Assembly (NCBI GenBank): GCA_030041385.1
Contig: JASHNY010000095.1
Coordinates: forward strand, 1-48,933
Length of the DNA stretch: 48,933 nucleotides
Source of the DNA: Alphaproteobacteria bacterium
Lineage (GTDB): Bacteria > Pseudomonadota > Alphaproteobacteria > ATCC43930 > CGMCC-115725
Direction: 5' to 3'
Under the pieces are notes generated by a model that searched no databases, was not told where the DNA came from, and saw only the letters and a list, made by a program, of their open reading frames with translations. The number at the start of each line of letters is the position of its first letter. The first letter of the stretch is position 1. Position numbers and translations under genes: made by a program. Below are positions 10,062-45,630 of the stretch, in pieces.

Positions 10062-10140
10062 CGTCCTGTCCCATCCCCCCAATAATTCTCGCAGTTTACG
10101 GCGCCGCGGGCCGCCGGTCGAGGCCGGCGAGCGCGCCCCG

Positions 10141-11184
10141 TCAGCGGCGGAACTGCGGCGCCACCTCGCGCATGAACAGCGAGAGGCTGGCCGCCGCTAC
10201 CTCGTGCGGCATCGGCCCCAGCCGGAAGGCGTTGATGACCCCGCCGATGCCGAGCCGCTCGATCGCGGCAAAATCCTCGGCGACGCGCGCCGGCGAGCCG
10301 TGGATCAGCCCGTCGCCGCGCGCGGTGCGCGCGCCGGGCAGATCGTTTTTCGGCACCTCGATGCGCAATCCGGTCTCGGCGAAGATGCGGTCGCGCATTT
10401 CCGCCCGCGCCCGGGTCATCGTCTCGAAGGCCGGGATGCCGATGCGCTCGGCCTCGGCGTCGGTCGCCGCGACAAAGACGTTGCGCCACACCCAGCTCGC
10501 CGCGAGCGCCGCATCGATCGCGGCATCGTCGTGGCCGGCCTCGCGCCGCGTCAGGCGGTAGAGCTCGACGCGGCGGCGGGTCGTTTCCAGCGACTGCACG
10601 TTCATCATGAACGGCTTGCCCTCGCGCGCCAGCGCCACCAGCGAGGCGTCGCCCGAGGAGCCGCGGATCACTGGCGGGTGCGGCCGGGTGAACGGGCGCG
10701 GCCGCAGCATCGGCACGCTCAATTGCCAGAACCGGCCGCGGTGCTCGAACCCGCCGCCGGTCCAGGCCGTCAGCATGATCGCCTCGGCCTCGATGAGCCG
10801 CTCCTGCGCCTCGCGGTGGTCGATGCCGAAGCCCAGGTAATCGTAGATGTTGTAGGAGCTGCCGCGGCCGAGCCCGACGATCAGGCGCCCCTTGAGCAGA
10901 TTGTCGAGCAAGGCGATCTGCTCGGCGAGGCGGATCGGGTGATGCAGCGCGGTCTGGATCACGGCAAAGCCGAGCGCGGCACGGTGCAATAAGGCGGCGA
11001 GCGCCCCGGCAATGCCGATCGGGTCGCCGTAGACCGAGATGCCGTCGAAATGGTGCTCGGCCAGCCAGACGACATCGACCCCCAGTTCCTCGGCCAGCCG
11101 AGCCTCGCGCAGCGTCTCGTCGATGACCGCCCCGTCGCGCGCCGGATCGCGGGAATCGGGAAACAGGAACGTACTGAATTTCAT
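10141..11184 (-). CDS. LLM-class flavin-dependent oxidoreductase
   Basis: This second luciferase-like monooxygenase family protein (347 residues) has MKFSTFLFPDSRDPARDG, VDVVWLAEHHFDGISVYGDP, HHPIRLAEQIALLDNLLKGR and LIVGLGRGSSYNIYDYLGFG. These match the flavin-binding barrel of the family. The ATG at 11184 is chosen over a start 45 nt upstream since it begins at the first beta strand. It lies 79 bp upstream of the other LLM gene in the same direction. The two paralogues differ clearly in sequence, so they likely act on different substrates or steps. Confidence 0.85.
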   Translation of the reverse strand: MKFSTFLFPDSRDPARDGAVIDETLREARLAEELGVDVVWLAEHHFDGISVYGDPIGIAGALAALLHRAALGFAVIQTALHHPIRLAEQIALLDNLLKGRLIVGLGRGSSYNIYDYLGFGIDHREAQERLIEAEAIMLTAWTGGGFEHRGRFWQLSVPMLRPRPFTRPHPPVIRGSSGDASLVALAREGKPFMMNVQSLETTRRRVELYRLTRREAGHDDAAIDAALAASWVWRNVFVAATDAEAERIGIPAFETMTRARAEMRDRIFAETGLRIEVPKNDLPGARTARGDGLIHGSPARVAEDFAAIERLGIGGVINAFRLGPMPHEVAAASLSLFMREVAPQFRR

Positions 11185-11378
11185 GCCGGCCTCTGATCTG
11201 CTGGGGCGGGCATCACGGACCCGCGGCATGGTGCTGTCAAGCCGCGCACCCGAAATCCCGCTTGCTAGGCAGGCGCCCGCCGCTGCGCTAGTGTCGCCCC
11301 AAGACCGCTGCCGTTCTGCCGCTGTTCGGCGCAGCCGGCGGCGGCGCAGTTTGCGGCGCAGCCGAAAGGAAACCTGCG

Positions 11379-12101
11379 ATGATCGATCTGCATTACTGGC
11401 CGACCCCCAACGGCAAGAAAGTGACGATCCTGCTCGAGGAAGCCGGGGTCGAGTACAAGATCATCCCGTGCAATATCCAACGGGGAGACCAATTCACCCC
11501 CGAATTCCTCAAGATGAACCCGAACCACCGCATGCCGGTGATGGTCGATCATGCACCAAAGGGCGGCGGGGCCCCGATCAGCGTGTTCGAATCCGGGGCG
11601 ATCATGATGTACATCGCCGAAAAGGTCGGCAAATTCTGGCCGCAGGATGTGCGCGGCAAGTACGAGGTCACGCAATGGGTCATGTGGCAGATGGCCAACC
11701 AGGGGCCTAAGCTCGGCGAATGCGGCCATTTCCGGCGCGCCGGACCCGAGGCCGGCGATCTTAGCTATGCCATCCGCCGCTTTACCGACGAGGCCAACCG
11801 GCTCTACGGCGTGCTCAACAATCGGCTGTACCGGAGCCGCTATCTCTGTGGCGATGAATACACGATTGCCGACATGATCTCGTATCCGTGGACCGTGAAC
11901 TGGAAGGCGCAGGGCCAGGACATCGACGAGTTCAAATATTTCAAGCGCTGGTTCGAGGAGATCGGCGAACGCCCGGCGGTCAAGCGCGGCATGGCGGTCG
12001 GCGCTAATTTGCCGCCGGACCCGGCGAGCCTTTCCGACGAGGAGCGCGCCGCGATCAGGAAGCGCATGTACAACCAGCGCGCGATCCCGGTGCCGGCTTA
12101 A
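11379..12101 (+). CDS. Glutathione S-transferase (YfcG/Nu-class-like)
   Basis: This 240-residue protein has an N-terminal thioredoxin-fold domain beginning MIDLHYWPTPNGKKVTILLEE, with the NPNHRMPVMVDH cis-proline loop and the ESGAIMMYIAEK glutathione-binding segment. A helical C-terminal domain contains YLCGDEYTIADMISYPW. This matches the YfcG/YghU (Nu-class) group, whose members bind two glutathiones and show disulfide reductase activity. That activity is inferred from the family. A GAAAGGAAACC ribosome-binding region precedes the ATG. It is transcribed away from the LLM gene at 10141-11184. Confidence 0.9.
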   Translation: MIDLHYWPTPNGKKVTILLEEAGVEYKIIPCNIQRGDQFTPEFLKMNPNHRMPVMVDHAPKGGGAPISVFESGAIMMYIAEKVGKFWPQDVRGKYEVTQWVMWQMANQGPKLGECGHFRRAGPEAGDLSYAIRRFTDEANRLYGVLNNRLYRSRYLCGDEYTIADMISYPWTVNWKAQGQDIDEFKYFKRWFEEIGERPAVKRGMAVGANLPPDPASLSDEERAAIRKRMYNQRAIPVPA

Positions 12102-12129
12102 AGGAGCGCGGGCGTCCGGCCCGCAACCC

Positions 12130-12690
12130 ATGCCAAACCCCGGTCCCGGCCCGTCATTGCGCGCCATTCCCGAAGGCGACAACCGCGAGCGCCTGATCTG
12201 CGCCGAATGCGGCTACATCCTCTATGACAACCCGAAGGTGGTCGTCGGCTCGGTCGCCCGCTGGGGCGAAAAAATTCTGCTGTGCCGCCGCGCGATCGAC
12301 CCGCGCAAGGGGTTTTGGACCCTGCCCGCGGGCTATCTCGAACTCAACGAATCGACCAGCGCAGGCGCCGAGCGCGAGGCGTGGGAAGAAGCGCGCGCCC
12401 GGATCGAGATCGAAGGGCTGCTCGCGGTCTACGACATCCCGCGGCTGTCTCAGGTGCAGCTGGTCTACCGCGCCCGGCTCGTCGATGCGGCAGTCGAGCC
12501 CGGGCCGGAAAGTCTCGAAGTGGGGCTTTTCGGCTGGGACGAAATCCCGTGGGACGACATCGCCTTCCCCTCGGTACGCTGGGCGCTTCACCACGAGCGC
12601 GAGGCCCAGGCGAGCGGCAATCTGTCCGCTCATATCGGCCTGCCGCCGGGCTTCCCGCCGTCCGACCCGACGGCGCCGCAGGGGTTGTAG
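12130..12690 (+). CDS. Nudix hydrolase with N-terminal zinc-ribbon-like segment
   Basis: This 186-residue protein contains CAECGYILYDNPKVVVG, typical of Nudix proteins with an N-terminal zinc ribbon; only one CxxC pair is visible. The Nudix box runs GYLELNE...REAWEEARA. The usual glycine after EE is replaced, which is a habit of this subfamily rather than damage. Such enzymes hydrolyse nucleoside diphosphate-X compounds (NADH, ADP-ribose or related), but the substrate cannot be read from the sequence. It lies 28 nt downstream of the GST gene and is likely co-transcribed with it. Confidence 0.87.
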   Translation: MPNPGPGPSLRAIPEGDNRERLICAECGYILYDNPKVVVGSVARWGEKILLCRRAIDPRKGFWTLPAGYLELNESTSAGAEREAWEEARARIEIEGLLAVYDIPRLSQVQLVYRARLVDAAVEPGPESLEVGLFGWDEIPWDDIAFPSVRWALHHEREAQASGNLSAHIGLPPGFPPSDPTAPQGL

Positions 12691-12795
12691 CGGCCGCGAA
12701 AATCGCCATCGACCTGTAACCGGGCGGTCATCGAACCGGTGTTTACCGAGCCGGTTTCACCTCACCCCGTCGATCGGCAACAGGGACGAGCGGCC

Positions 12796-13452
12796 ATGGA
12801 GTTCGATGCTGCGAAGATCCACTACATCCCGACGACCGGGGTGCGGCGAGTCGTCGAAACGCCGCTTGTCGCCGCCACGGATGAGGCGCTGAAGGGGTAT
12901 GGCTGCCTCGTCGAGACCCCGACCACCTTCCCGATCGAGATCGTGCGCTGGCCGGCTCAGGGATGGCGCCCGGTCGACGACGGCTCGGGTGACCAGGCCG
13001 GCGTGGCCGAGGGGATTTTCGAATTCTGGTGGAAGGGCGAAACGCTGTTCGCCCGCAACAACGCCGTCGGCGACAGCTATCTGTTCGCGTGGAGCACCTG
13101 GCCCGAAGAGGCGGCCGGCGACGGGCCGTCAACGGCGCGGGAGCGCGCCTTGGTGTGGCGCGCCAACTACCACCCCGACGGCGGCCAACTGTTCTACCCG
13201 ATGGGAGGCCAGGGCTTTGTCGTGCCGCTCGCCCTCCCGGGCGACGACGTAACGCCGGAGCGCTTCGTCAGCTTTCGGTGCGACGGCAGCTGCGGGCTTT
13301 ACATCCACCCCAACATCTGGCACGGCGCGGTGGTGCCGCTCGACGACCGGGCCGAGCTGCTCGACCGGCAGGGCCGCGTGCATGCCCGCGTCTCGGTCGA
13401 TTTCGCCAAGGAATTCGGGTGCTATCTCGGCGTGCCGCTGCGCCAGCCCTGA
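12796..13452 (+). CDS. Ureidoglycolate lyase (AllA)-like cupin protein
   Basis: This 218-residue protein has the cupin-type AllA signature GLYIHPNIWHGAVVPLDD, preceded by FVSFRCDG. AllA releases urea from ureidoglycolate in purine/allantoin breakdown. The protein is longer than typical AllA (about 160 residues), with an extra N-terminal part, and no other allantoin genes are nearby, so the substrate may differ. The ATG at 12796 (MEFDAAKIHYIPTTG) is chosen over one 57 nt upstream because homology-like sequence starts there. It converges on ftsY with only 4 bp between the stop codons. Confidence 0.6.
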   Translation: MEFDAAKIHYIPTTGVRRVVETPLVAATDEALKGYGCLVETPTTFPIEIVRWPAQGWRPVDDGSGDQAGVAEGIFEFWWKGETLFARNNAVGDSYLFAWSTWPEEAAGDGPSTARERALVWRANYHPDGGQLFYPMGGQGFVVPLALPGDDVTPERFVSFRCDGSCGLYIHPNIWHGAVVPLDDRAELLDRQGRVHARVSVDFAKEFGCYLGVPLRQP

Positions 13453-32898: not shown

Positions 32899-32975
32899 GG
32901 CGGGGTAGCTCAGTTGGTTAGAGCAGGGGAATCATAATCCCAAGGTCGGGGGTTCAAATCCCTCCCCCGCTACCA
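32899..32975 (+). tRNA. tRNA-Met (CAT), elongator type
   Basis: The 77-nt sequence folds fully. It has acceptor GGCGGGG with CCCCGCT and encoded ACCA (1-72 is a G-T pair), D arm TAGCTCAGTTGGTTAGAGC, and a T arm GGGGGTTCAAATCCCTC. The anticodon loop is ATCATAA, with anticodon CAT. The paired 1-72 position excludes initiator tRNA. Sequence memory favours elongator Met, but lysidine-modified tRNA-Ile2, which also has CAT, cannot be fully excluded. It borders the accessory cassette at 33.0-45.6 kb. Confidence 0.92.
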
Positions 32976-33035: not shown

Positions 33036-34733
33036 TCACGGCGGAGCCTCGCCCGCGAGGCCGGCTTCGATGAAGCCGCAGAAATGATCCGCCATAATGC
33101 CCACTTCCGGGGCGGTAGACCCCTGCTGCACGACCGGCTCCACGGCGGCGAGTTGCGCCGGGGTGATCTTGCTGACGAAAGCCAGCTTCCGGTAGGCAAA
33201 GAGCAAAGCGTAGTGGGCAAACCTCTGGCGGCTGGCGGGATCGAGCTTGGGCTGGCCAGGGATTAGCGTAAACAGCGGCTTGCCGACGTCATCGGTGGCA
33301 TTGGCGACAAAAGAATGAAAACGGCGGAGCGGCTTCGTTCCGTAATAGCCGCGCAGGTTATCGCCCAGGGATTTGTTCTCATCATAAGCCGCGCCGATAT
33401 TGATGCCGTCGATGTCGCCGATCAGGTCGGCGACCCCGGCATGAGCATTCACGTAGGTGCGGATATCGACCGTCTTGCCGTTCACCTTGTCTTCAAGGTA
33501 GCTGGCCAGCGCCAGACCGTAATCGCCGCCCCACGTTATCGTGGCTTCGAGGTCGTCGCTGGCGAGCAGCGGCCAGTGCCACGGACCGATGCCAGGGCTG
33601 CCGAGCTGCGGCTGCTGTCGCCGAAACCCCTCGATCGCGGTCAATACGTGGCCGATATCGACCGGCTTTCCGCCGATCTCCATATTCTCGAAGCGGTGAA
33701 GCCGGACGTCTTCCGCTGTACCGGGCGCGAAAAGCGCCGGGATGTCGTGGCTGCGATACAGCAATTCGTCGAAATGGCGGGCAAACGGGCTGCCGGGCGG
33801 CGGCTGAAAGATTTTCCGTACCGCATGCAGGAATTGCAGGTGCGTCAATCCCGGCGGCGCACCGACGAGGAACTGCTCCTGCTTATCGACGATGGCGATA
33901 AAAACCTCGAGATCGTTGCGTTGCAGCACCGCATCGGCGGTGATGTCGCGCCCGTCCCGCAACCGCGATTGCACCATGATGTGCAGGCGCTGCGTTCCCG
34001 GGTCGGTGGTCACCGTGGACTGGGCGGCAAATGTGCCGTCATCGCCGACAGCGGCGACCGGGCTGGAGGCGTTCTTGGCGCCCGGGCCGCGCGGCATGTA
34101 TACTTGGTTGTTTACTGCAAGCGGCCACCAGGCCTCATTTTTGTCGAGCTTGCGAAGCGGGCGGCGCGTGCCCCCATCGTCGATCATGACGCGCCCGACG
34201 ATCCGCAGCGACAGCATCGGCGAGGGCAGGTCGGTGCCGGCGAAGAGCGCTTCAAACCCTCCTGCCGGCGTGCCGATGAAGGGAACGCTCCAGCTGCCGA
34301 TTTCGATTTTATCGAGCTGCAGACCCGGGGTGCGCGGCGCGCCCGCGGGAGCCGTCCCCGGCGGCACCTGGAACTCCGTCGCGCCCGGCGCTTCGCGCGC
34401 CATCGCGCCGACGCCGTATTCGCCATGCCCGGCTGCCTCGGCACACAGCCGCGCCAGCATCCGCATCGTCGGCGGCGCGGCCAGCGTGGGCGGTTGCGCC
34501 AGCAGCCCCGACAAGGCGACCGCCGCTGCGCGCGGCCCGAGCGCGGCCGTTAGTTCGTCGGCGGAGAGACCGGCAAATTCGGGGGCCAAAGCCGGCCGGA
34601 TCGCAGCGTACGGATCAATGCCGGGGAGCGTCTGCCCGTGCGGCCCGGCGGCGGCCGGCGCGCTGCCGAGCCCGTGCCCGTATTCCTGTTCGGGCGGCGG
34701 AGACTCGGATGGGTTCATTTCCCAATGCGGCAT
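33036..34733 (-). CDS. Unknown 565-residue protein of the accessory cassette
   Basis: I do not recognise this protein. The N terminus is low complexity (MNPSESPPPEQEYGHGLG from residue 6). The middle is beta-rich (GSWSVPFIGTPAGGFEALF, then SLRIVGRVMIDDGGT). The second half has distinctive motifs KPVDIGHVLTAIEGF, ITWGGDYGLALASYL, ADLIGDIDGINIG and LRGYYGTKPLRRFHSF, which look like a conserved enzyme or structural core. There is no signal peptide or transmembrane helix. It starts 6 nt after the muramidase stop and is the last gene of the operon. An ATG at 34718 is an alternative start. Confidence 0.75.
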   Translation of the reverse strand: MPHWEMNPSESPPPEQEYGHGLGSAPAAAGPHGQTLPGIDPYAAIRPALAPEFAGLSADELTAALGPRAAAVALSGLLAQPPTLAAPPTMRMLARLCAEAAGHGEYGVGAMAREAPGATEFQVPPGTAPAGAPRTPGLQLDKIEIGSWSVPFIGTPAGGFEALFAGTDLPSPMLSLRIVGRVMIDDGGTRRPLRKLDKNEAWWPLAVNNQVYMPRGPGAKNASSPVAAVGDDGTFAAQSTVTTDPGTQRLHIMVQSRLRDGRDITADAVLQRNDLEVFIAIVDKQEQFLVGAPPGLTHLQFLHAVRKIFQPPPGSPFARHFDELLYRSHDIPALFAPGTAEDVRLHRFENMEIGGKPVDIGHVLTAIEGFRRQQPQLGSPGIGPWHWPLLASDDLEATITWGGDYGLALASYLEDKVNGKTVDIRTYVNAHAGVADLIGDIDGINIGAAYDENKSLGDNLRGYYGTKPLRRFHSFVANATDDVGKPLFTLIPGQPKLDPASRQRFAHYALLFAYRKLAFVSKITPAQLAAVEPVVQQGSTAPEVGIMADHFCGFIEAGLAGEAPP

Positions 34734-34739
34734 GACGGC

Positions 34740-37178
34740 TCACCCGACGCCGATGCTGAGGTCGCAATTCCACCGCGTGCCGTCGAATATCGACGCCTGA
34801 ATGGTCCCATCCATCGCCCGCGCCGCCACCATCGCGGTTGTGCCGTCTGTCGCTGCGACCGGGTCGGCGGCCGCCTTGACGGTGCAGATCTGCTGCACCT
34901 TCCAGGCTCCGCCGTCGGGCCAGATCTCGTGAATGGCGCGGTCGGTTCCGCGGTAGACGATGTGCGGCGTGTGCTGCATGACAAAACAGGCCGGATGCCC
35001 GGCCGCCGCCACCGCGTGCGCCGCCGCGGTCAGGTTCGTCGCCGCGTTGTCGCGGCGCCTGATAACCCAGAGGTCGCCGCCGACGCCGCGAAACACGATG
35101 CCGACGCCGTCCGGTGTCTCGAAGGCGCACGGCGAATATGTTGCCGCGGGCAGCGCAGCGGCGCGAACCTGCGCCAAGGCGGTGACGTCATCCGCCCGCC
35201 AGCTGCCATGCGCGTCCTGCCAGACATCAAAGAGGTGTCCTTCGTCACCGACCCGACCGATCAGGTGCACCTCGCCGCCGGTCACATAAAGGCTTGGCTG
35301 ACCGGTCGATTGTCCGTGAGCCGGCGATGCCTTGACCCCGGCCGCGCTGAGCACGCGCGTCGAGGTGACGCGGCCGCCCGCTATGGTCAGCAGATGCCAG
35401 TCGTCGTCATCACCCCAATAGCAGGCGTATCGCGTGTCGCCGGCGGCGACGGCGTGCGGGTCATGGATCGGCTTGGCGTCTCCCGGCCGATCGATCTGGT
35501 TCGCATGCCAAACCGAGGGGTTCCGCACGCTCATCGTCGCTTCGACAACGTGGTCGCCGCTGCGAAAATAGAGGGCGAGACCGTCCGCGACCGCCAGCAG
35601 CGCCGGATCGCCGCCCACGGGCACGCCGGCGCCCGACAGATCTTGGTCGGCCCAGGCGGGACCGAGATGGAGATGCTGGCGTCCATCCGGCCATTGCGCA
35701 TGCGCCATGCAGCGTGTGTCACCGACGAAAGCGACGCCGACGCGGCCGATATCGGCGAGACCCAATAGCCCGTGTACGGTTCCGTGATAAGCGGTGAAAT
35801 CGATCCCGGTCACATGAATGTTGGGCTCATGATAGGGGTTCATCCCCCAGTAATTCTTGCCGTCCTCGGCGTATTGGATGAAATCCCAGTCTCTGCCCCA
35901 AGCACCGACGCTGATCGTCGTCAAGTCCCGCTCGCCGTGATACACGGTCCATAATGGATATTCCGACATGATTTTTGGATCGTTCATCATGTCGCTATCC
36001 CTCCACATATGGGAGGTGTAGATCATCGGCGTCCGCCCCAGGGCGGTCTCGACCCGCTCCATAAAACTGCGGATGTCGGCCAGCAGCTCGGCGACCCCGT
36101 CATGCCAGTGCGGGTTGCCGGCGATGCGACGGTAATGATAGCCGCGCTGCGCCGGCGTCATGCCCTGGTCGAGCGGATATCGGTTGGCAGGGCCGCGCGG
36201 CTCGTCTTCGAGGTCGAGTGCCGGCGGCAGATCGCCCGGAACCAGGCGTTTGACAAGGCGGACGACCGTATTGGCCTGATCGGCGATCGCGCCGTGCAGC
36301 CACGCCTGCGGCACCCCGTCCCACTTGTTGGCGAAGAAGTGGTAGGAGCCGCGCAGCAGCCCGGCGGCCTTTGCCATGTCGTAATACTGCGCGAACCGGG
36401 CATCGGCCAGGGTGCCTTGCGACGACTTCACGATGGCGAACAGCTTTCCCTGGCGCCTGAGGTTGGCGAACGCAGCGGCATCCATCTGCTGACCGGCATA
36501 GAGGTCGACGCCCAGCGGCCAGCCCGCGACCGCATGCGGCGGCGCAGTTACCGCCTGCGCCGCTTGCGGCCGCGGCGCCCTCGCCGCCTCCGCCTCGTAG
36601 AGCACCGGCTCGCCGTGCGCGCCGAGCCGGCTTTCCTGATGATCCGCTGCTTCCCGGAAGAGCTGGCCGAGATGGCGCAGATAGGTTGCGACCGGGATGT
36701 CGACGCCGTGCACCGGCAGCGAGTGCCGGCCGGCCGGGCCGAGGAGCACCGCGAGCGTGGCGTGCAGGGGCGTCGCCGAGAGCAGCGCCTGATGCAGCGC
36801 AATGACCGCCGGCAGACCGCCAAGACCGGAGGCAAGCGGCTCTGCGGGCAGCGACGAATAGAGCGGCGACAGGGCTGCGCCGATCCCATGGAAAGCGTCG
36901 AATTCGGTCGAGGCTGCCGGCGGCTCTGCCGCCTCCGGCGTATCGGCCAGAAACTGCTCGGCCGTTAGCAGCGGCTCATTGGCCCCGTTCGCACGCGATG
37001 CCGCCGCAGCCCACTTGCCTTCGGGCTCGGCGGCGGGCGCCGTTTCTCCGGCCGATGGCAGCAGGAATGGGCTTTGCGCCAGTTCCCCGGCCGCAGCGCC
37101 GCCGCTCAATTCGCCCGGGCTGACGGCCGGCAAGTGCCACTCGCGGTTCCCGACCCCGTTTGGCAATGTCCGCAGCAC
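34740..37178 (-). CDS. GH25 muramidase fused to a probable beta-propeller
   Basis: The 812-residue protein starts at a GTG (37178) with AGGAGAGAG just upstream; the frame is open further upstream only as the shadow of the previous gene. Residues 1-210 are Ala/Pro-rich with QSPFL at 35-39. Residues 219-470 form a GH25 lysozyme domain: GVDLYAG (D225), GSYHFFANK, catalytic ALDLED (D322, E324), WDFIQYAED and GIDFTAYHG (D460). GH25 enzymes cut peptidoglycan glycan strands. Residues 470-812 are repetitive beta-rich sequence with a recurring pattern (for example QPSLYVTGGEVHLIGRVGDE and HIVYRGTDRAIHEIW), probably a carbohydrate-binding propeller. No signal peptide exists, so export would need a specialised route or lysis. 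Confidence 0.85.
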   Translation of the reverse strand: MLRTLPNGVGNREWHLPAVSPGELSGGAAAGELAQSPFLLPSAGETAPAAEPEGKWAAAASRANGANEPLLTAEQFLADTPEAAEPPAASTEFDAFHGIGAALSPLYSSLPAEPLASGLGGLPAVIALHQALLSATPLHATLAVLLGPAGRHSLPVHGVDIPVATYLRHLGQLFREAADHQESRLGAHGEPVLYEAEAARAPRPQAAQAVTAPPHAVAGWPLGVDLYAGQQMDAAAFANLRRQGKLFAIVKSSQGTLADARFAQYYDMAKAAGLLRGSYHFFANKWDGVPQAWLHGAIADQANTVVRLVKRLVPGDLPPALDLEDEPRGPANRYPLDQGMTPAQRGYHYRRIAGNPHWHDGVAELLADIRSFMERVETALGRTPMIYTSHMWRDSDMMNDPKIMSEYPLWTVYHGERDLTTISVGAWGRDWDFIQYAEDGKNYWGMNPYHEPNIHVTGIDFTAYHGTVHGLLGLADIGRVGVAFVGDTRCMAHAQWPDGRQHLHLGPAWADQDLSGAGVPVGGDPALLAVADGLALYFRSGDHVVEATMSVRNPSVWHANQIDRPGDAKPIHDPHAVAAGDTRYACYWGDDDDWHLLTIAGGRVTSTRVLSAAGVKASPAHGQSTGQPSLYVTGGEVHLIGRVGDEGHLFDVWQDAHGSWRADDVTALAQVRAAALPAATYSPCAFETPDGVGIVFRGVGGDLWVIRRRDNAATNLTAAAHAVAAAGHPACFVMQHTPHIVYRGTDRAIHEIWPDGGAWKVQQICTVKAAADPVAATDGTTAMVAARAMDGTIQASIFDGTRWNCDLSIGVG

Positions 37179-37246
37179 ATCTCTCTCCTGTCGAACGACA
37201 CGACGAGCGGGCGACGGCGACAGCGCGCGGCCGAAGCGGCCAGCCG

Positions 37247-38632
37247 CTAACCCTGGGGCGCGTGCCCGTTGGGCCGCGGCGCCGGCCGGGCGGCCGCGTG
37301 ATGGGCCGTCGCCGCGGGCAGCGCATGGGCAGCGGCATGTGGAGCATGAGCGGGCGCCGCATGTGATGCCGCCGTCGCCGGCGGCAGGACGTGTGGCGCC
37401 GGGCGCGGTGCGGTTGCCGCGCGGGGCGTCATCGTCATCGCCGACGCCTTCAGGTCGCGGCCGCTCGCCAGCGAGTATTGGTCGATGACGATCTCGGCAT
37501 TGGCTGCGATCGTCGATGGCGGCGTGTAAAGCGAGACGACGCTGCCCGGGTCGTTGAGCAAACCGGTCTCGATCGACTGCATCAGCGACGAGAACGGCTG
37601 CGCCAGGTCGAACAGCGCCTTGGACTTCGAGTGTGCCGACATGCCGACGCGCTCCGCTATTTTTTGCAACCGCTGCTCCGGGCTGCTGGCGCTGGCGTTC
37701 AGCGCCAGCACGATCGCCGAGTCGTAGAGCACCGCGAGGTGCAGCCACGCCATGATGCTCACCGCGCGATAGCGCACGTTGCCGTTGAAGTCGTTGAGCT
37801 GCCGGGTCGCCATCATGTCGTAGATGCGCCGCGCCGCGGTGGCCATCGCCTCGTTGTCGGTGGGGTTGGCGCCGCTGCTGTTTTTTGCGTTCTCGATGCC
37901 TTTCCACACCTCGCTCGCCAGGGCCTCGAAGGTCGGAATGAAATCCCGGTTCGCCGCTTCCGGCCGCGGGTACGGATGGTGCGCGGACAGTTCCGGCGCG
38001 TGCGACAGATCGATCCCGAACATCCAGTAATACAGCGTCATCCGGTTGGCGATCTCGTCGCTGCGCAGGCGGCTGGCGGTCGTCCACACCATCGTCGGCA
38101 GCGCGTCGCTGTAGACCAGATATTCGGTGTTGCGGAGAAACTGCTGCGCCGCAAAACTCGGCGACGGCAGTTGCTCGCTGAACATGTAGGTCTCCAACAC
38201 CTTGGCGAAGATGTCGTAGATCCGCGTGTTTTCGATCAGGTAGGCGTAGATCAGGTGGTCGAAATTGGTCATGCCCGGAACCGCCTTCAAACCGGGCTGG
38301 TCGAGCGGCGCCACGAAGATCTCGCCGGCCGGCATGAACAACTGCCCCGTGGTGATGGGTGTTGGCGGCTGGTCGTTCGCGACGCCGGGCGGGTTGTAGC
38401 CGAGCCTGTAGTCGTCGCTGAGCAGCGCCTGGGTGGTCCCGACCGGCCACGCGACAAACGGCGAATTCGCCAGGCCCGGCCCGTTGAGAGCGTTGTAGCG
38501 GTTGCGCCAGAACATCTCGACGATGGCCGAGAGCTGCAACGGGTGATAGAGGAACAGGCTGTCGGCGTTCGCCTGCACCACCGAGGTGACCGGCGGGCCG
38601 AACGGCGGCGGCGTTACCAGTTGAAGAAACAT
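37247..38632 (-). CDS. Unknown 461-residue protein with His/Ala/Pro-rich tail
   Basis: This protein starts MFLQLVTPPPFGPPVTSVVQ and appears largely helical in the middle (NFDHLIYAYLIENTRIYDIF, LRSDEIANRMTLYYWMFGID, RAVSIMAWLHLAVLYDSAI). The last 70 residues are a low-complexity Ala/His/Pro tail, a possible flexible linker or metal-binding tail. There is no signal peptide and no family I know. A GGAGATT ribosome-binding site precedes the ATG. It lies between a small helical protein and the GH25 gene in the same direction. Confidence 0.75.
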   Translation of the reverse strand: MFLQLVTPPPFGPPVTSVVQANADSLFLYHPLQLSAIVEMFWRNRYNALNGPGLANSPFVAWPVGTTQALLSDDYRLGYNPPGVANDQPPTPITTGQLFMPAGEIFVAPLDQPGLKAVPGMTNFDHLIYAYLIENTRIYDIFAKVLETYMFSEQLPSPSFAAQQFLRNTEYLVYSDALPTMVWTTASRLRSDEIANRMTLYYWMFGIDLSHAPELSAHHPYPRPEAANRDFIPTFEALASEVWKGIENAKNSSGANPTDNEAMATAARRIYDMMATRQLNDFNGNVRYRAVSIMAWLHLAVLYDSAIVLALNASASSPEQRLQKIAERVGMSAHSKSKALFDLAQPFSSLMQSIETGLLNDPGSVVSLYTPPSTIAANAEIVIDQYSLASGRDLKASAMTMTPRAATAPRPAPHVLPPATAASHAAPAHAPHAAAHALPAATAHHAAARPAPRPNGHAPQG

Positions 38633-38666
38633 GGTTTAATCTCCTCGATCATCGCACGCCGGCGGA

Positions 38667-39002
38667 TCAGCGTCCGACGGTGCGGGGCGGCGTCGCCGGA
38701 AAAACCGGCCGGCTGAAGCCGCCGCTGGTTTCGAGCGGGCGCTGCGGGCCGCTGAGGCTGTAGTGCAGCCGCAACAAATTGGCCAAAGCATCCTTCGCCT
38801 GGGGGCTGAGGGGCGGGTTGAACGATACGATTTCCGCGTTTATCGCCTGGGTAACCGGATCGGCAGAAGCCAGCAGATCGGCGGCGAGTTCGCGCGCCAT
38901 CTCGGCGGCTTCCTCGCGTGCGGTCTCGACAGCCGCCTCGCGCGCCGCTTCCGCGATGCGTTCGTGGTGGGGCGTCTGGTGCGGCCCTCTCGACTCGCTC
39001 AT
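38667..39002 (-). CDS. Small helical protein of the accessory cassette
   Basis: This 111-residue protein begins MSESRGPHQTPHHERIAEAA. A strongly charged Ala/Glu/Arg helix follows (about residues 15-45, EAAREAAVETAREEAAEMAR), and the C terminus is Pro/Arg-rich. The start at 39002 has AGGAG 7 nt upstream and is preferred over one 24 nt earlier. It could be a coiled-coil adaptor. No homologue is recognised. It lies 37 bp after the metalloprotease-like gene and 34 bp before the 461-residue gene. Confidence 0.65.
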   Translation of the reverse strand: MSESRGPHQTPHHERIAEAAREAAVETAREEAAEMARELAADLLASADPVTQAINAEIVSFNPPLSPQAKDALANLLRLHYSLSGPQRPLETSGGFSRPVFPATPPRTVGR

Positions 39003-39039
39003 CGGTGATCTCCTACCCTTGGTCACAGCCTTCCTCGCC

Positions 39040-40329
39040 TCATGCTGCCTGCTGCGCTGTCATGTGGCCGAGCCGGATCATCAAATCCTCCTGCTGCTGC
39101 AGGATCTCGCGCCCGGCTTCGGGTTCGAGCGCGTAGCGCAGGCCCGACAGCGCGGTCAGCCGCAGGCATTCCGTCCAGATCCAGTGACTTGAGTTGAACG
39201 CGGCACCGCCGGCGTCGCGCTGCATCAGGCGCAGCGCGGCCGGCGCGACGCGCTGCGGGTCGACGAGATCGGCAAGCCGGCGCTGCCTGAAGCAGGCAAG
39301 CGGCGTGAGCAACGCCAGATCGACAATGCGCGGCAGCAGCGGCCGGATCGCCGACACCACCCCGGCGACGAGAGCTGGCGCCTCCCCGAGCGGATGCAGC
39401 TCCTCCCACGCCGCCGCCAGCTCGTCCCACGGCCCGAGGCCATAGAAGCGCCGGCACATCTCGACGCCGAGAAGCACCCGCAGGAAGGCGATCGGGTGCA
39501 CGTCTGCCGGCAAAAACCGGAAAACCTCAGGTCCCTGGCCGGCCACCACATCCGAGAGCGCGACGACGGCGGCGTACCCGGTATGCGCGAAGGCGAAACT
39601 GTCGGCGGCGATCTCGCTGGCCCAGTTGGCCACCTGCGCCGCGATTTCCGGCGGGGTGCGGCCGAGACCGGTGCGCAGCGCGGCAGCAAAGGCGCTGTTC
39701 CAGCGGGTCAGTCCCGCCACCTGATGGCCGCATTCGTGGACCAGCGCCGTCGGCCGCAGACGGTTGTGCCAGGTGATCTTGATCGCGGCGACCTGGCTCA
39801 GAGAACCGTCCCACAGCCGGGTGCCGATACGCAGGATCGATGCGCCGATCCCGGGCTTGAAATAGGTCAGCACCGGCGGTGTCGCAACGCCCAGCGGCTC
39901 CAGCGCCGTCAGGATCGCGCGCTCCGCCATCACATCGCAGGCCCGCAGCTGGGCGCCGACCTCGGGGTTGCCGCGCGACCGAACCGCGTCGACGTAAAAA
40001 TCGACGAGAAGCTCGGTCTGCAGGTAACGGTCGCGCAGGTGGCTGACCTGATCGGCGATCCTTTCCAGGTCGCGGCGCCCGCGCGCCGCGTTAAACGCCG
40101 CGCGCACCGCGACCGCCTCGCGCTTCAGCTGGTCGCGCGCCTGCTTGAGCTCTCCGCGCAGGGTCACCCCGACATAGCGCTCGAGCGTCGCCCAGGCGGC
40201 CGGTGACGCGGTGGCCTCGAAATCGTCGAGCCGCTCGGCTGCGCCTTCCCAATGCGTCAGCTGCCGCAGCACCTGGCGGCGCAGATTGGCGGTGGCGCGG
40301 TCGGCGCGTTCGGTGACGGTGTCGTTCAT
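39040..40329 (-). CDS. HExxH putative metalloprotease (gluzincin-like)
   Basis: This 429-residue protein has a helical N-terminal half and a zinc-protease signature ALVHECGHQVAGL (H198, E199, H202). A likely third ligand, E239, lies in NWASEIAADSFAF, and a conserved-looking ADVHPIAFLR (H278) follows. This order resembles gluzincin peptidases of the M48-like kind, but I cannot name the family. There is no signal peptide or membrane segment. Its ATG overlaps the stop of the 818-residue gene (ATGA at 40326-40329), so the two proteins are probably made in step and may act on or with each other. Confidence 0.75.
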   Translation of the reverse strand: MNDTVTERADRATANLRRQVLRQLTHWEGAAERLDDFEATASPAAWATLERYVGVTLRGELKQARDQLKREAVAVRAAFNAARGRRDLERIADQVSHLRDRYLQTELLVDFYVDAVRSRGNPEVGAQLRACDVMAERAILTALEPLGVATPPVLTYFKPGIGASILRIGTRLWDGSLSQVAAIKITWHNRLRPTALVHECGHQVAGLTRWNSAFAAALRTGLGRTPPEIAAQVANWASEIAADSFAFAHTGYAAVVALSDVVAGQGPEVFRFLPADVHPIAFLRVLLGVEMCRRFYGLGPWDELAAAWEELHPLGEAPALVAGVVSAIRPLLPRIVDLALLTPLACFRQRRLADLVDPQRVAPAALRLMQRDAGGAAFNSSHWIWTECLRLTALSGLRYALEPEAGREILQQQEDLMIRLGHMTAQQAA

Positions 40330-42782
40330 TTGATCGCGTAACCCGGATGCGCGACGACGGCGAAAACCGGCGTGCCGTTGAGCCAGGCGCCGCGGTGCGG
40401 GTCCGCCGGGCGGTGCCCTTGAGCGAGCAGGCGCAGCGTTTCGACCCCGGGGATGCTCATCGTCAGCCGCAGGGTCAGCCCGTCGTGCTGGGCGGTGACG
40501 AGGCGACGGAATTCGTCGGCATGGTTCGCCAGGTACTGCGCAACCTGGTGCGACGCCCATTCGTCGATCTTGCCGGCCAATTCCCTGCCGACCGACACCA
40601 GCCACGCCGGCACCACCGCATCGAAATTGGGTGCCTCGCTGATCACCCGCAGGTCCGGCGGCAGGTGCCGCCCGGCAAGCGCCGCCCGCAATTCACCCGC
40701 GGTGTGCTGCACCAGGGGCTGAACCAGGCGAAAGGCCGCCGTGGGGCCACCGGGCTGGCCGAGCGCGGCCGCGACCTGCTGGCACAGCCGCTCGCTCAGA
40801 TAGAGCCACAGCCGGATCTCGCCTTTGCGCAGGTTGATCGTCAGTTCCGTATGCGCGCGCCTTGCGTGGTGGCGATGGTGCAGATGCTGCCGGCCGTTCG
40901 GCGGCTCGATGTAGTAGAGCCGCTGACCCACGTGCAGCCGATGCAGCCGCGACGGATGGCCGTGTTGTGCATGACGGTAGCCGAGCCCGGCATTCGGCCC
41001 GAGGAGAATCCCCGCGGCGTGCGCCGTCAACGGGTGGAGGTCGTGTTTGCGAATACCCTCGGCGCGGGCGATCGTCGCCGCGCGGGCGCCGGGCATCGGC
41101 TCGATCAGATGGATGCGGCCCTTGAAGGTGCGGCCGGCGGGCAGGTCCAAGCGATCGCGCAGGTGATCCGTCAGCGTGGCGCCGCCGAAGCTGTGCACCA
41201 TGCCGGCCGCCCGCGGCGTGATCGTGACCTCGGGCGCGTGGCTGTATTTCGCGTAGCGCTTGCGATGCGAGCCGTGCGGCAGGCGGTGCCAGACTCCCGG
41301 CTGGTCCGCGGTCTCGCGCAGTTCCGGCTTGATCAGGGCGTCCGGAAAATGTGACGACGCCGCCTCCTCGAAGGCCTCGCGGACCGCGGCGTCGAGCATC
41401 GTGTCGTTGTCGAAAACGCGGGGCGGCAGCTCGGCCAGCCGGGTCGCCGTGTCCTCGATCGTCGCCGCCAGAGCCTCGGTTGCCACGGCATGCGGATCGG
41501 ACGGCGCGGTTTCCAGGCCGACCACGCTCAAGCCGGTGCTGGCCATGGCCGGCGCGAGCATTTTGGCGGCGTCGGCGCCGAGCATCGGCTTGATGAGCTG
41601 CGCCAGCAAGCCGCTGACAAAGCTGACGACCCGCGGCCGACCGATCACCGCGATGCCGCCCTTGAGCGCCGGCCAGAGGGCCGCCAGAGCCGGCAGGAAC
41701 TGCTCCATCGCCGGCTGCGGGCTCTCGCCGGGCTGCAGCCGGGCGAGCCCGGTGCTCAGTTCGGCGCGCGCGCGATCGAGCACCTCCAGCGGCGATGCTT
41801 CGTAACTCTCCTGCGCCTCCTCGCCGTAGGATGAGACGAGATGATCGGCCTCGCCCTCGTCGGGCGTCATCGCCAGCTGGGCGGCATGGAGATCGAACTC
41901 GGCCTCAAGCCGGGCAATGTCGGGCGCAGCCGGGAGGCTTTCAGCCTCGGTCTGCTCGTAATGCCCGGCCTCGCCCTCGTGAGCGTCGCCGAGCTCGTGA
42001 AAGAGGCGGTCGGACAGTTTTTGCGCGAGCGGCCGGACCTGCGGCGGCAGCTTGTTGAGCGCAAACTTTACGACATGGCCGAGCAGAAAGCGGGCGAGCT
42101 TCTTTAACGGTTCGAGCAGGGGACCGAAGGCCAGTTTGCCGGCGAACGCCAGCCCTTTTCCGACCAGCTTGAGCGGCGCCTTGACGGCGGCGGAGACCAG
42201 CTTGCCGGCCTTGCGCAGCAAGCCGCCGAGAAAATGCTCGGTGGCCGGCGAGCTTGGCTCGGCGGTCGCCAGCGCCTCGGTGGCGAGGCGCTCGATCTCC
42301 ATCTCGGTCAAGGCGCTCGGCTCGTGACCTTCGAGCCGTTCGAGGAAGCGATCGAGTGCGGCATCCGATTGCGCGGCGAGCGGCGCAAAATGCTCGTTGA
42401 GGAGCCGTTCGGCGGCCAAGTCGCGCATCTCGCGATCGCCGTACTCGCCCGCGAGCTGATCGCCGTGCATCTCCAGCGCCTCGTCGGCCAGCTGCTCCAG
42501 CGCATCGCGGAATTCGCTGTCTTTCAGTTCGGTCGCCAGCTCGGCGAGGCCGGCGATTTCGGCCGGCGGCAATTCGATTTCGCCAAGCGCCGGCGCGCCG
42601 ATCGACAGGAACGGCGTCGGCAGCTCCAGTGCGGGCGCAGCCCCGCCAGGGATTTCGCCCGGCAGCATTCCCCACTGCGGCTCTTCAAAGGATTCGTGCC
42701 CCGAAATCTCAAGGAACGGCGTTTCCGCGAACGACCGGTCCTCGTACCCGTCGGAGTAACGGTCTCGTAGCGATTGGGACAT
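40326..42782 (-). CDS. Unknown 818-residue protein with Lys-rich hydrophobic segment
   Basis: The acidic N terminus (MSQSLRDRYSDGYEDRSFAE) carries TPFL at residues 21-24 and again at 56-59. Residues 75-180 are acidic helices. Residues 184-256 form an alternating hydrophobic/lysine region (LVSAAVKAPLKLVGKGLAFA, LLEPLKKLARFLLGHVVKF) that could insert into or lie on membranes. A second hydrophobic stretch lies near 360-425. The C-terminal part is His-rich near 600-650, then beta/alpha sequence ending AHPGYAIK. No known domain is recognised. The start at 42782 has GAGG 5 nt upstream; an ATG at 42800 has poorer signals. Confidence 0.8.
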   Translation of the reverse strand: MSQSLRDRYSDGYEDRSFAETPFLEISGHESFEEPQWGMLPGEIPGGAAPALELPTPFLSIGAPALGEIELPPAEIAGLAELATELKDSEFRDALEQLADEALEMHGDQLAGEYGDREMRDLAAERLLNEHFAPLAAQSDAALDRFLERLEGHEPSALTEMEIERLATEALATAEPSSPATEHFLGGLLRKAGKLVSAAVKAPLKLVGKGLAFAGKLAFGPLLEPLKKLARFLLGHVVKFALNKLPPQVRPLAQKLSDRLFHELGDAHEGEAGHYEQTEAESLPAAPDIARLEAEFDLHAAQLAMTPDEGEADHLVSSYGEEAQESYEASPLEVLDRARAELSTGLARLQPGESPQPAMEQFLPALAALWPALKGGIAVIGRPRVVSFVSGLLAQLIKPMLGADAAKMLAPAMASTGLSVVGLETAPSDPHAVATEALAATIEDTATRLAELPPRVFDNDTMLDAAVREAFEEAASSHFPDALIKPELRETADQPGVWHRLPHGSHRKRYAKYSHAPEVTITPRAAGMVHSFGGATLTDHLRDRLDLPAGRTFKGRIHLIEPMPGARAATIARAEGIRKHDLHPLTAHAAGILLGPNAGLGYRHAQHGHPSRLHRLHVGQRLYYIEPPNGRQHLHHRHHARRAHTELTINLRKGEIRLWLYLSERLCQQVAAALGQPGGPTAAFRLVQPLVQHTAGELRAALAGRHLPPDLRVISEAPNFDAVVPAWLVSVGRELAGKIDEWASHQVAQYLANHADEFRRLVTAQHDGLTLRLTMSIPGVETLRLLAQGHRPADPHRGAWLNGTPVFAVVAHPGYAIK

Positions 42783-42804
42783 GCCTACCTCGTGCTCCAT
42801 GCGC

Positions 42805-43209
42805 CTAGCTGGGACGCGATTTTCCGGCCGAGGTCGCCGGCGCGGCCGGCCTGCCGGGTCGGCGCGAAGGAGCGCCCTCGGTCAGTGCCGCCAGCAAGCT
42901 TTCCGCCGACAGCTCCACAAGCTGCGTCGACCATGGCCGCAACTCGTGGAGGAAACCGCCCTTGCCGTCGCTCGCGATGGCAATGACCTTGAGCCTGGGA
43001 AAGCTCGACAGCAGGTCGCGGTAGCGCGCCGTGGCGCCCGGTTCGGCGGTCTGCAATACCACCGCGTCGGCTTTCGTCGCACGGATCGCGGTCGCCAGAT
43101 CTTCAGGATCCGCGATGACGCCGGCAAGCGTCGTCTGCGGCGCCTCTTCGAGAACGGCGGTGATGATGCTGTTCAGCATGTTCGACATACCGGCCAAGAG
43201 AATCCGCAT
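42805..43209 (-). CDS. Stand-alone pseudo-receiver protein
   Basis: This 134-residue protein has the alternating beta/alpha pattern of a response-regulator receiver domain (MRILLAGMSNMLNSIITAVL, ADAVVLQTAEP, LKVIAIASDGKGG). At the phosphoacceptor position it has Q53 instead of Asp, and the N-terminal acidic pair is absent, so it cannot be phosphorylated in the normal way. The C-terminal 25 residues are a basic Pro-rich tail. It lies 22 bp before the 818-residue gene and is probably the first gene of the operon. A GTG at 43221 is an alternative start. Confidence 0.7.
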   Translation of the reverse strand: MRILLAGMSNMLNSIITAVLEEAPQTTLAGVIADPEDLATAIRATKADAVVLQTAEPGATARYRDLLSSFPRLKVIAIASDGKGGFLHELRPWSTQLVELSAESLLAALTEGAPSRRPGRPAAPATSAGKSRPS

Positions 43210-43521
43210 CCGAACCGACACCTCGTTGTCGAATTAGGCTACCGGTTCCCCCGCGCCGGCTAAATGAACCCGGTGGTCCGGTTGGTGGGCTAAAAGCGGC
43301 CCGGACCTTCATCCGGCATGCGAGGTTCGCAACCCGCACTGCGCTCCGCACCGGCCCTTTGCCACAGCGTCCTTGTCAACGGGTCTGATGATCCGGATTC
43401 GGTCCGGACCTGGATCTGGATCGCTGCCCATCCGCGGGAACGCGCGGTCCACGCCACCCGACCGTAGCGCGGCTGCGGAGCATTGTTTCACGGAACGCGC
43501 CCGGCTGGCTGGCGCCGGCGG
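43210..43521. other. 312-bp upstream region of the accessory operon
   Basis: No gene is seen. It holds a perfect 10-bp palindrome GGTCCGGACC at 43401-43410 and a good -35-like TTGACA on the minus strand near 43375-43380, but no matching -10 at 16-18 bp. An activator-dependent promoter for the operon would fit this arrangement. Short frames inside it look like noise. Confidence 0.4.
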
Positions 43522-44199
43522 CTAGAGCCCGGGCCCACGCGGCTGCATCGCGACCTGCCCTTGCCACGGCCGCACCTCGAAGCGCCGCCCGAAAATCTCG
43601 CTGCGCCGGCCGATCTTCAGTTTCTGCAGGATGTTGTGGACGTGGTTTTTCACGGTCGCGTTGCCGAGGCGCAGGCGGCGGGCGATTTCTTTGTTCTGCA
43701 GGCCCAGGGCCAGCAGCGCGGCGATCTCTCGCTCGCGCGGGGTCAGCCCCTCGGTCGCGGCGGCCGACAAGCCGGCTTTGGCCAGGGTCGCGATCCTGTC
43801 AAACAACAAAGCCGTGATTCTTGGCGGACAGACAAGTTCGCCGTTGAGCGAGCGCATTATCGCCGCCACCAATTCCTCGACTGTGGCGGTCTGCGGAACG
43901 TAGGCGCAGATGCCGGCCTCGGCGCAGGCAAGGACGTCTGCCTCCTGTTCGGCCAGAGCGACCGCCACGATTCGCAGATCGGGAAGCAGCAGATGGAGTT
44001 GCGTCGGAATGCGCAAACTCTCGGGCCCGGTCATATCGAGCAGAACCAGGTCGGGCGCCAAATCTTCGATCTCGCTCAACGCATCGGCGAACGCACCGTG
44101 GCCAACCACGACCAGCCGGCTCTCGCGCCGCAACATCGCGCTGAGCCCTTCGCGAAAGAGCCGCGTGTCGCTGATAAGGTAGATCCGGGGCGCCGCCAT
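43522..44199 (-). CDS. NarL/FixJ-type response regulator with atypical receiver
   Basis: This 225-residue protein has a receiver domain (residues 5-120) and a LuxR-type helix-turn-helix (GLTPREREIAALLALGLQNK, then EIARRLRLGNATVKNHVHNI). The phosphoacceptor D55 is present in LVLLDMTG. The N-terminal acidic pair is reduced to SD (S10, D11), and the conserved lysine is replaced by Q103 in YVPQTA, so phosphorylation signalling may be altered. No histidine kinase is nearby. It probably controls the cassette to its left, 312 bp upstream of the first gene. Confidence 0.88.
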   Translation of the reverse strand: MAAPRIYLISDTRLFREGLSAMLRRESRLVVVGHGAFADALSEIEDLAPDLVLLDMTGPESLRIPTQLHLLLPDLRIVAVALAEQEADVLACAEAGICAYVPQTATVEELVAAIMRSLNGELVCPPRITALLFDRIATLAKAGLSAAATEGLTPREREIAALLALGLQNKEIARRLRLGNATVKNHVHNILQKLKIGRRSEIFGRRFEVRPWQGQVAMQPRGPGL

Positions 44200-44487: not shown

Positions 44488-45630
44488 TCAGGACGCGGCG
44501 TCTGGACGCCCGTGCAATGGCTGCGTCTCCTGCAGGATGACCCGCACCAGTTCTGCCTGCCGGCTGGTGTTGGTGCGCTGAAAGCACTGGAGAAGATGCG
44601 TGCGTGCCGTAGCCCGGGAGATGCCGAGACGACGAGCCGCCGCCTCGACGCCGTCTCCGTGCAGGATTTCGCGCGCCAATGACGCCTGCGCCGGCGTCAG
44701 GCCGAACAGCGATCGCAGCTGCTCGCGCGACGGCAACGAGCGTACCGCCAACTCGTCGGCGAAGACGACCGCCGCCGGACGTCCCGCCAGCCACGGGGCG
44801 CATTTCTGCACCGGCCACACTTGAAGCGACAGCACGCTCGCGTCGCCATCGCGCAAAACAAGCTTGCCGCTCGGCGCCGCCGGGTCACCGGCGATCATTG
44901 CCCGCAGCCAGGCCGTGTCCGACGGTGCACAGGCGGCGAGGCGACCGGCGCGGCCATGCAGGCCCTTGCCCTTGTACAACAGCGCCTCCGCGGCAGCATT
45001 TGCCTGCAGGATGCGGGCGTGGCGATCGACCAGAAACGCTGCGGAACTGCAGCGGTCGAGCATTTCGACCGCACCGTCACGCTCCAACTCGATCTGGCCA
45101 AACCGCAGGTTCAAATTCAGCACGCGCTGCAGATGCGGCGCCAGAGCGTTCAGCGTGCGCTCCTCGACAGCTGTAAAACGACCCTCTTTGGCAGAGCGAT
45201 AAAAGCCGATGCCGGCAACCGCCTCCCGGCCGTTCGCAAGATTGCTGAACAGCGCGAAATCGTGGCGTTGCGGGGCCCAGAACTCGTTGTAAAACGCCGT
45301 GCCCTCGAAGTCGCGGCGCGGCATCAGATTTTCGAATTGGTAGATGGCCCCGACCGGGAGAGCCAAGCCTCGCTCACGCACCGGATTGGATCTGGACCAG
45401 CGTTCGCCGTAAGCGTGCAGCCATTGCGGATCGGTGCGCGGCGCGATCAGCAGAAACGTTTTCCCGTCGGGGCCGATGACATGAAGGCTCACAGCACGCG
45501 CCCGCAAGGCGTCTGCTATGGCCGCCATCTGCTGCGGCCATGCACTCAAATCGGCCGCAGCCTCATAGACGCGGTGGATCAGGCTCTGGATATCCGGCGC
45601 TGGTCTCATCATTCCCGCCGCAAGCCGCAT
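44488..45630 (-). CDS. LuxR-family transcriptional regulator with PAS-like sensor region
   Basis: This 380-residue protein has an N-terminal sensor-like region (QSLIHRVYEAAADLSAWPQQ), a central PAS-like part (SAAFLVDRHARILQANAAAE, around residue 200) and a C-terminal LuxR helix-turn-helix (FGLTPAQASLAREILHGDG, then AAARRLGISRATARTHL). It has no receiver domain, so it may sense a ligand or redox state directly. It is the outermost gene of the accessory region and is separated from the response regulator by 288 bp. A start at 45612 is also possible. Confidence 0.87.
   Translation of the reverse strand: MRLAAGMMRPAPDIQSLIHRVYEAAADLSAWPQQMAAIADALRARAVSLHVIGPDGKTFLLIAPRTDPQWLHAYGERWSRSNPVRERGLALPVGAIYQFENLMPRRDFEGTAFYNEFWAPQRHDFALFSNLANGREAVAGIGFYRSAKEGRFTAVEERTLNALAPHLQRVLNLNLRFGQIELERDGAVEMLDRCSSAAFLVDRHARILQANAAAEALLYKGKGLHGRAGRLAACAPSDTAWLRAMIAGDPAAPSGKLVLRDGDASVLSLQVWPVQKCAPWLAGRPAAVVFADELAVRSLPSREQLRSLFGLTPAQASLAREILHGDGVEAAARRLGISRATARTHLLQCFQRTNTSRQAELVRVILQETQPLHGRPDAAS

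Follow-up and report, generated by a model that had tools for sequence, protein, structure and literature searches.

A conserved four-gene core linked to exchangeable enzyme genes in Alphaproteobacteria and Acidobacteriota: a candidate effector cassette

Results

Layout of the locus

The window, by which we mean the whole 48,933-nucleotide stretch of alphaproteobacterial DNA analyzed here, carries a compact cassette of seven minus-strand ORFs, flanked by a NUDIX/argJ-like region on one side and by tRNA-Met/mnmA on the other. Four of its genes form a core (A to D), and the two that follow are termed cargo (E1 and E2). L004 denotes a locus of the same genus, and dom a domain found in cargo genes.

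44488..45630, minus strand: LuxR-type regulator, 380 aa; weak GerE/HTH matches only; upstream, membership in the unit uncertain
43522..44199, minus strand: response regulator with LuxR HTH, 225 aa; Pfam GerE 7e-17, Response_reg 2e-8
42805..43221, minus strand: pseudo-receiver protein, 138 aa; no confident family; weak L004 counterpart, E 9e-7
40326..42800, minus strand: core gene A, 824 aa (818 aa from 42782); relatives 64/55/52% identical
39040..40329, minus strand: core gene B, 429 aa, gluzincin-like probable metalloprotease; HExxH at residues 198-202, ExxxD at 239-243
38667..39002, minus strand: core gene C, 111 aa, small helical protein; C-terminal LxRLxxSLxGP...RP conserved
37247..38632, minus strand: core gene D, 461 aa, predicted all-helical, with a Pro/His/Ala-rich tail
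34740..37178, minus strand: cargo E1, predicted GH25 muramidase, 812 aa; Glyco_hydro_25 68.9 bits, cut-off 27
36627..36911, minus strand: dom in E1; profile match E 7e-40
33036..34733, minus strand: cargo E2, uncharacterized 565-aa protein with a shortened dom
34410..34622, minus strand: shortened dom in E2; two profile pieces, E 1e-14 and 5e-4
32899..32975, plus strand: tRNA-Met (ARAGORN); adjoins the cassette end

An earlier, sequence-only reading of this DNA had described seven co-directional genes with short junctions, two LuxR-type regulators upstream, and no Sec or Tat signal in any product. The seven ORFs, their coordinates, and the junction lengths were all reproduced when A is taken from its inner start (42782), which is also the start that matches the alignment with its relatives. 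The pseudo-receiver gene and A are then separated by 22 bp (4 bp with the outer ATG), A and B overlap by 4 bp, and the remaining gaps are 37 bp (B-C), 34 bp (C-D), 68 bp (D-E1), and 6 bp (E1-E2). E1 starts at a GTG (37178) with a purine-rich site upstream. One of the two LuxR-type genes exceeds the Pfam cut-off and the other is weak. A counterpart of the 225-aa response regulator adjoins A in L004, where it is divergently transcribed (tblastn E 3e-37), and the modules of L004, L039, and L050 likewise have LuxR-type genes nearby. Indeed, none of the seven products has a hydrophobic N-terminal signal. Only the GH25 domain scores above the Pfam cut-off among them; for the other six, NCBIfam and PHROGs gave no further assignment, the GH25 protein having the only PHROG match (endolysin). 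No outer-membrane channel or energized transporter was identified in the cassette. In the window and in L004, no small extra gene that might confer immunity lies between or directly after the cargo genes, as judged by ORF reading, and immunity proteins can be hard to recognize.

A conserved core across two phyla

A scan of ~85,000 species genomes with D led to three loci, L004 in an alphaproteobacterial MAG of the same genus and L005 and L006 in Acidobacteriota MAGs. All three carry A-B-C-D in the same order and on the same strand, with C counterparts between B and D. A third Acidobacteriota genome has a diverged locus (L025) with A, B, and D likewise ordered and oriented, and diverged versions occur in ~10 further loci. 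Ensifer adhaerens and Paraburkholderia phymatum are among the cultured carriers of a diverged version. Identity to the window across L004, L005, and L006 is ~50-64% for A and ~77/71/67% for B (overall range 67-78%); for D, it is 68-73% in L004 and 53-59% in L005/L006, and D is diverged in L025. Between the window and L004, dN/dS is ~0.28 for A and ~0.20 for both B and D. Since gene order is kept across phyla and purifying selection acts on A, B, and D, the cassette is more than a chance assembly. The expectation that the gene set would co-occur as a block thus holds for A-B-C-D in L004, L005, and L006, but not for all seven genes as one fixed set, because the GH25 and 565-aa genes are interchangeable cargo.

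The N-terminus of A is acidic and disordered and carries two TPF motifs. Its charge profile reveals a cationic amphipathic segment at residues ~187-265; the middle of the protein is helical, and the AF2 model predicts an alpha/beta C-terminal domain at ~520-820. The corresponding proteins of the diverged modules, A', are homologous to A (hhalign probability 93.7%) and are also acidic, and charge profiles place a cationic amphipathic segment in most of them. We infer from these features that A may be membrane-active. Structure prediction yielded no usable fold. The AF2 model of A is partly ordered, with no Foldseek match at E<=0.001, a best Z of 6.7 among scattered helical matches in the VIA structure search, and no relative in the PDB sequence search; such absences do not amount to a new fold. 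For D, a model from four sequences was meaningless (pLDDT 35).

A glycine zipper was considered for the window's A and rejected, as it has no GxxxG excess; the feature holds only for some diverged A' proteins (L038, L039, and L047), which are glycine-zipper-like and membrane-active-looking. The A' of L039 (7439-8359) is a very acidic protein with a strongly cationic amphipathic stretch and then a glycine zipper inside, with 7 GxxxG observed against 1.9 expected, and it resembles a self-neutralized antimicrobial peptide.

The HExxH motif read earlier in B is present and is accompanied by ExxxD; residues H198, E199, H202, E239, and D243 are invariant in nine aligned homologues. B has no sequence match to known peptidase families in Pfam, NCBIfam, or the PDB. 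These residues make it a probable protease, with A and/or the cargo as its putative substrate. Six of 396 Acidobacteriota genomes and five of 299 Pseudomonadota genomes carry homologues with invariant HExxH and ExxxD, which also occur on rhizobial and Paraburkholderia megaplasmids. Most of these homologues are flanked by an acidic A' and a helical D'; at L040, a B homologue is present and no A' was identified. The B relatives of Bradyrhizobium quebecense and Sinorhizobium terangae instead adjoin CHAT, PLD, patatin, or C25 peptidase genes. On two rhizobial plasmids, B-type zincins (L048 7743-9164, L049 7737-9125) neighbor CHAT, PLD, patatin, C25 peptidase, or ATP-binding protein genes, with neither A nor D present, and may represent a separate conflict system that shares the protease family.

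D has no PDB sequence relative and no match in the plasmid search. Compared with a merged D' profile, it gives an hhalign probability of 28%, collinear across 252 columns, which is suggestive only; unrelated-profile controls give 0-4%, and comparisons with single D' sequences are not significant. In L006, D (10001-11301) is apparently split by a frameshift. The beta-lactamase-like cargo of the same locus (11320-13108) is also split over two reading frames, and these split genes reflect either decay or an assembly error.

Cargo genes share a constant domain

The genes after D, one to three per cassette, differ in every close-version genome. Their catalytic parts are unrelated, comprising GH25, Glucosaminidase, PLD plus trypsin (in a 1799-aa protein of L005), Beta-lactamase2-like, and PG_binding. 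In E1, an N-terminal SPF motif and dom precede the GH25 domain (residues 225-441), followed by C-terminal propeller-like repeats. E1 scores above the curated Pfam cut-off for GH25 muramidases and matches PDB muramidase 6zmv (E 2e-7); hydrolysis of muramyl bonds is predicted. For E2, searches of Pfam, NCBIfam, PHROGs, and the PDB returned no relative.

What joins these proteins is dom, a region of ~100 aa. The window and L004 each have two genes that carry it and L005 has three; one gene of L006 matches weakly. A constant region is thus combined with exchangeable catalytic domains in at least seven genes of the cargo, whose enzymes differ. Within the core genomes searched, every dom match lies in a gene adjoining the core. 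A search of 395 other Acidobacteriota genomes gave no dom match, and a search of further genomes from the class gave a single marginal one (E 1e-3), with only some candidates per genome scored in both; the domain was not detected in the cargo of L025. A second cargo domain, dom2, occurs in the 1799-aa protein of L005, an OmpA protein of L027, and an M74 protein of L039, and four of its five matches in the 13 module genomes searched adjoin the module. Neither dom nor dom2 matches a Pfam family, and the window's two dom copies also lack NCBIfam and PHROGs matches. Homology of dom to part of A, B, or D, or to dom2, was rejected, since profile comparison gave no support. An orphan protein away from the module (L046 6074-7213, G729:C14) combines a dom2-like stretch with an apparent SLT-like transglycosylase part; its neighbors, also judged by eye, are a type III secretion inner-rod-like gene and an FHA protein.

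A and several cargo proteins also have an N-terminal [ST]PF motif in common. It lies within the first 100 aa of 11 of 30 module proteins (A-type and cargo); the background count is 5 of 211 (p 5e-8). Because the A proteins are related to each other, a fairer comparison uses only the cargo proteins (5/15, p 1e-4). As the motif had been spotted ahead of the test and the background takes in mechanically called genes, we treat it as a lead and not as proof. Effector trafficking domains include the MIX, FIX, PAAR, and LXG types. Neither E1, E2, nor the other cargo has a Pfam match to the marker domains PAAR or DUF4157.

Probable movement between genomes

Downstream of the diverged A'-B'-D' modules lie VanY, OmpA, M74 endopeptidase, trypsin, or beta-lactamase-like genes. 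At several well-supported places in the B tree, sequences from Alphaproteobacteria, other Pseudomonadota, and Acidobacteriota are intermixed. In three genomes of the same genus (G023, G024, and G021), mnmA-tRNA-Met is followed by other genes, unrelated and different each time, so that this site looks like an insertion hotspot. In G023, the cassette lies on a different contig, and thus two genomes of one genus differ in its site. The best reading of these patterns is that the cassette moves horizontally.

Other genes recur near diverged modules. Closely similar amidohydrolase-like genes, with products starting M[IL].DCHCHAG.GDG.T.PW.T, lie near three of them in different phyla (L028 3950-4708, L029 17969-18832, L038 12965-13750). 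GIY-YIG-nuclease-like proteins, identified by eye, are encoded downstream of three (L037 13871-14707, L038 12104-12955, L040 16151-16840).

Markers of delivery, phage, and defense

Contractile-sheath (PF04984) and T6SS (PF05943) markers are both absent from G000, G023, G421, G422, and G486, which are all the genomes found with a close version, the window's included; these are draft genomes, and the absence is strong rather than absolute. Among genomes with diverged versions, only some have these markers. Relatives of D were absent from IMG/VR, and relatives of B from INPHARED and IMG/VR, for which reason a phage origin was rejected. The earlier observation that the locus has no phage or contractile-injection content is therefore borne out. 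PADLOC found nothing confident on the cassette, and no NTPase or MoxR-vWA core was seen, the core proteins having no Pfam match.

Discussion

The A-B-C-D core and its exchangeable cargo recur as a linked set in two phyla. Four uncharacterized proteins accompanied by changing, envelope-attacking enzymes with a docking-like domain in common look like an undescribed mode of handling or delivery. We propose, tentatively and with a confidence just short of even, that this is an effector cassette, regulated and horizontally moving, in which the core would dock, mature, and release signal-less envelope-degrading enzymes. A would be a membrane-active carrier, held quiet by its own acidic N-terminus, and the zincin B would activate the system by cutting A and/or the cargo. 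C and D could serve as chaperone or scaffold. Cargo may dock onto A or D through dom, or alternatively dom2, together with the SPF motif, and would then be released across the envelope of the producer to attack other cells by degrading their peptidoglycan, lipid, and protein. The sequences by themselves cannot decide between export and lysis of the producer, but export against neighbors is favored, given the rapid turnover of the cargo and the non-lytic enzymes in it. A weapon aimed at kin should come with an immunity gene, and the lack of a recognizable one counts against the effector-cassette reading, as do the lack of an identified outer-membrane channel or energized transporter in the cassette and the failure to detect dom in the cargo of L025. 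A bolder version, which we consider somewhat unlikely, joins A-B-C-D and A'-B'-D' into one undescribed protein-delivery or release system of Proteobacteria and Acidobacteria, in which a protease-activated membrane-active carrier, a docking domain, and [ST]PF would act independently of Sec, Tat, and contractile machines.

The same genes could instead serve the death of the producer. The sequence-only reading had offered a regulated lytic or effector package, either delivered by a system encoded elsewhere or released by self-lysis; the co-occurring package stands, and self-lysis is possible, if unlikely. In such autolysis or altruistic release, A would act like a holin on the producer's inner membrane and let signal-less hydrolases reach the wall under LuxR/response-regulator control. 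The absence of signal peptides from all cargo, the cationic amphipathic segment that A shares with most A', the prominence of wall hydrolases, the PHROG endolysin matches for GH25, and the lack of a detectable contractile machine in close-version genomes are all consistent with it. However, lysis has no use for trypsin, PLD, or beta-lactamase-like cargo, nor does such a device need a shared adaptor domain and rapid cargo exchange; there is also no phage gene, and neither D nor B has relatives in phage or viral collections. The other half of that proposal, delivery by a contractile system encoded in trans (eCIS or T6SS), fared worse. An effector-like repertoire without signals would suit it, as would the T6SS or sheath genes of some diverged-version genomes, but we disfavor it as highly improbable, since sheath and T6SS markers are both missing from all five close-version genomes.

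A different possibility is that the targets lie inside the producing cell. B and cargo of the trypsin or PLD type could be suicide effectors recruited by adaptor domains in an abortive-infection-like response, as in EAD-type conflict systems, where the EAD1 adaptor occurs in fusions with lysozyme and papain-like effectors (Kaur et al. 2020, PMC7159879). Homologues of B near CHAT, PLD, patatin, C25 peptidase, and ATP-binding genes on rhizobial plasmids, where A and D are missing, suggest a possible role of B in intracellular conflict systems. We nonetheless find this explanation quite unlikely for the cassette, in which no NTPase, MoxR-vWA, STAND, or sensor gene is recognized and PADLOC is silent; moreover, the cytosol offers muramidases no substrate polymer.

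If the effector-cassette reading is correct, bacteria of different phyla would be exchanging an undescribed weapon or lysis device, and dom/dom2 with [ST]PF would provide a genetic handle for signal-less effectors that current pipelines assign to no secretion route. With A, B, and D as uncharacterized families in a conserved operon, and with a division of labor that can be tested, the question of how signal-less wall hydrolases exit becomes directly testable.

It is useful to contrast the cassette with systems already described. The GH25 region of E1 scores above the Pfam cut-off, as in other GH25 muramidases, whereas in E1 this region is combined with an SPF motif, dom, and propeller-like C-terminal repeats, and the protein has no signal peptide. 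Like holin-endolysin modules, the cassette places a membrane-active-looking protein next to a signal-less muramidase; unlike them, it has no phage genes, adds a protease and helical partners, and carries exchangeable non-lytic cargo. The Cdz bacteriocin of Caulobacter (PMC5380434) recalls the glycine-zipper-like A' proteins of L038, L039, and L047, but the window's A has no GxxxG excess, no exporter was identified in the cassette, and the cargo enzymes are extra. EAD-type systems (PMC7159879) also set an adaptor on diverse effectors, including lysozyme-like, trypsin, and metallopeptidase domains, and share with relatives of B the proximity to CHAT genes; the cassette differs from them in having no recognized NTPase core and in a close-version cargo centered on the cell envelope. 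As the sequence-only reading had supposed, we found no paper on this gene set, within incomplete coverage of the literature, and by sequence the core proteins match no described family. Polymorphic toxin and effector systems (Zhang et al. 2012, PMC3482391) also combine a constant effector region with changing catalytic domains and move between lineages. In contrast to them, dom and dom2 have no Pfam family, no immunity gene was seen, and A-B-C-D has no recognized homologue in known secretion systems. The scheme of a constant adaptor with variable enzymes nevertheless works like that of polymorphic toxin systems.
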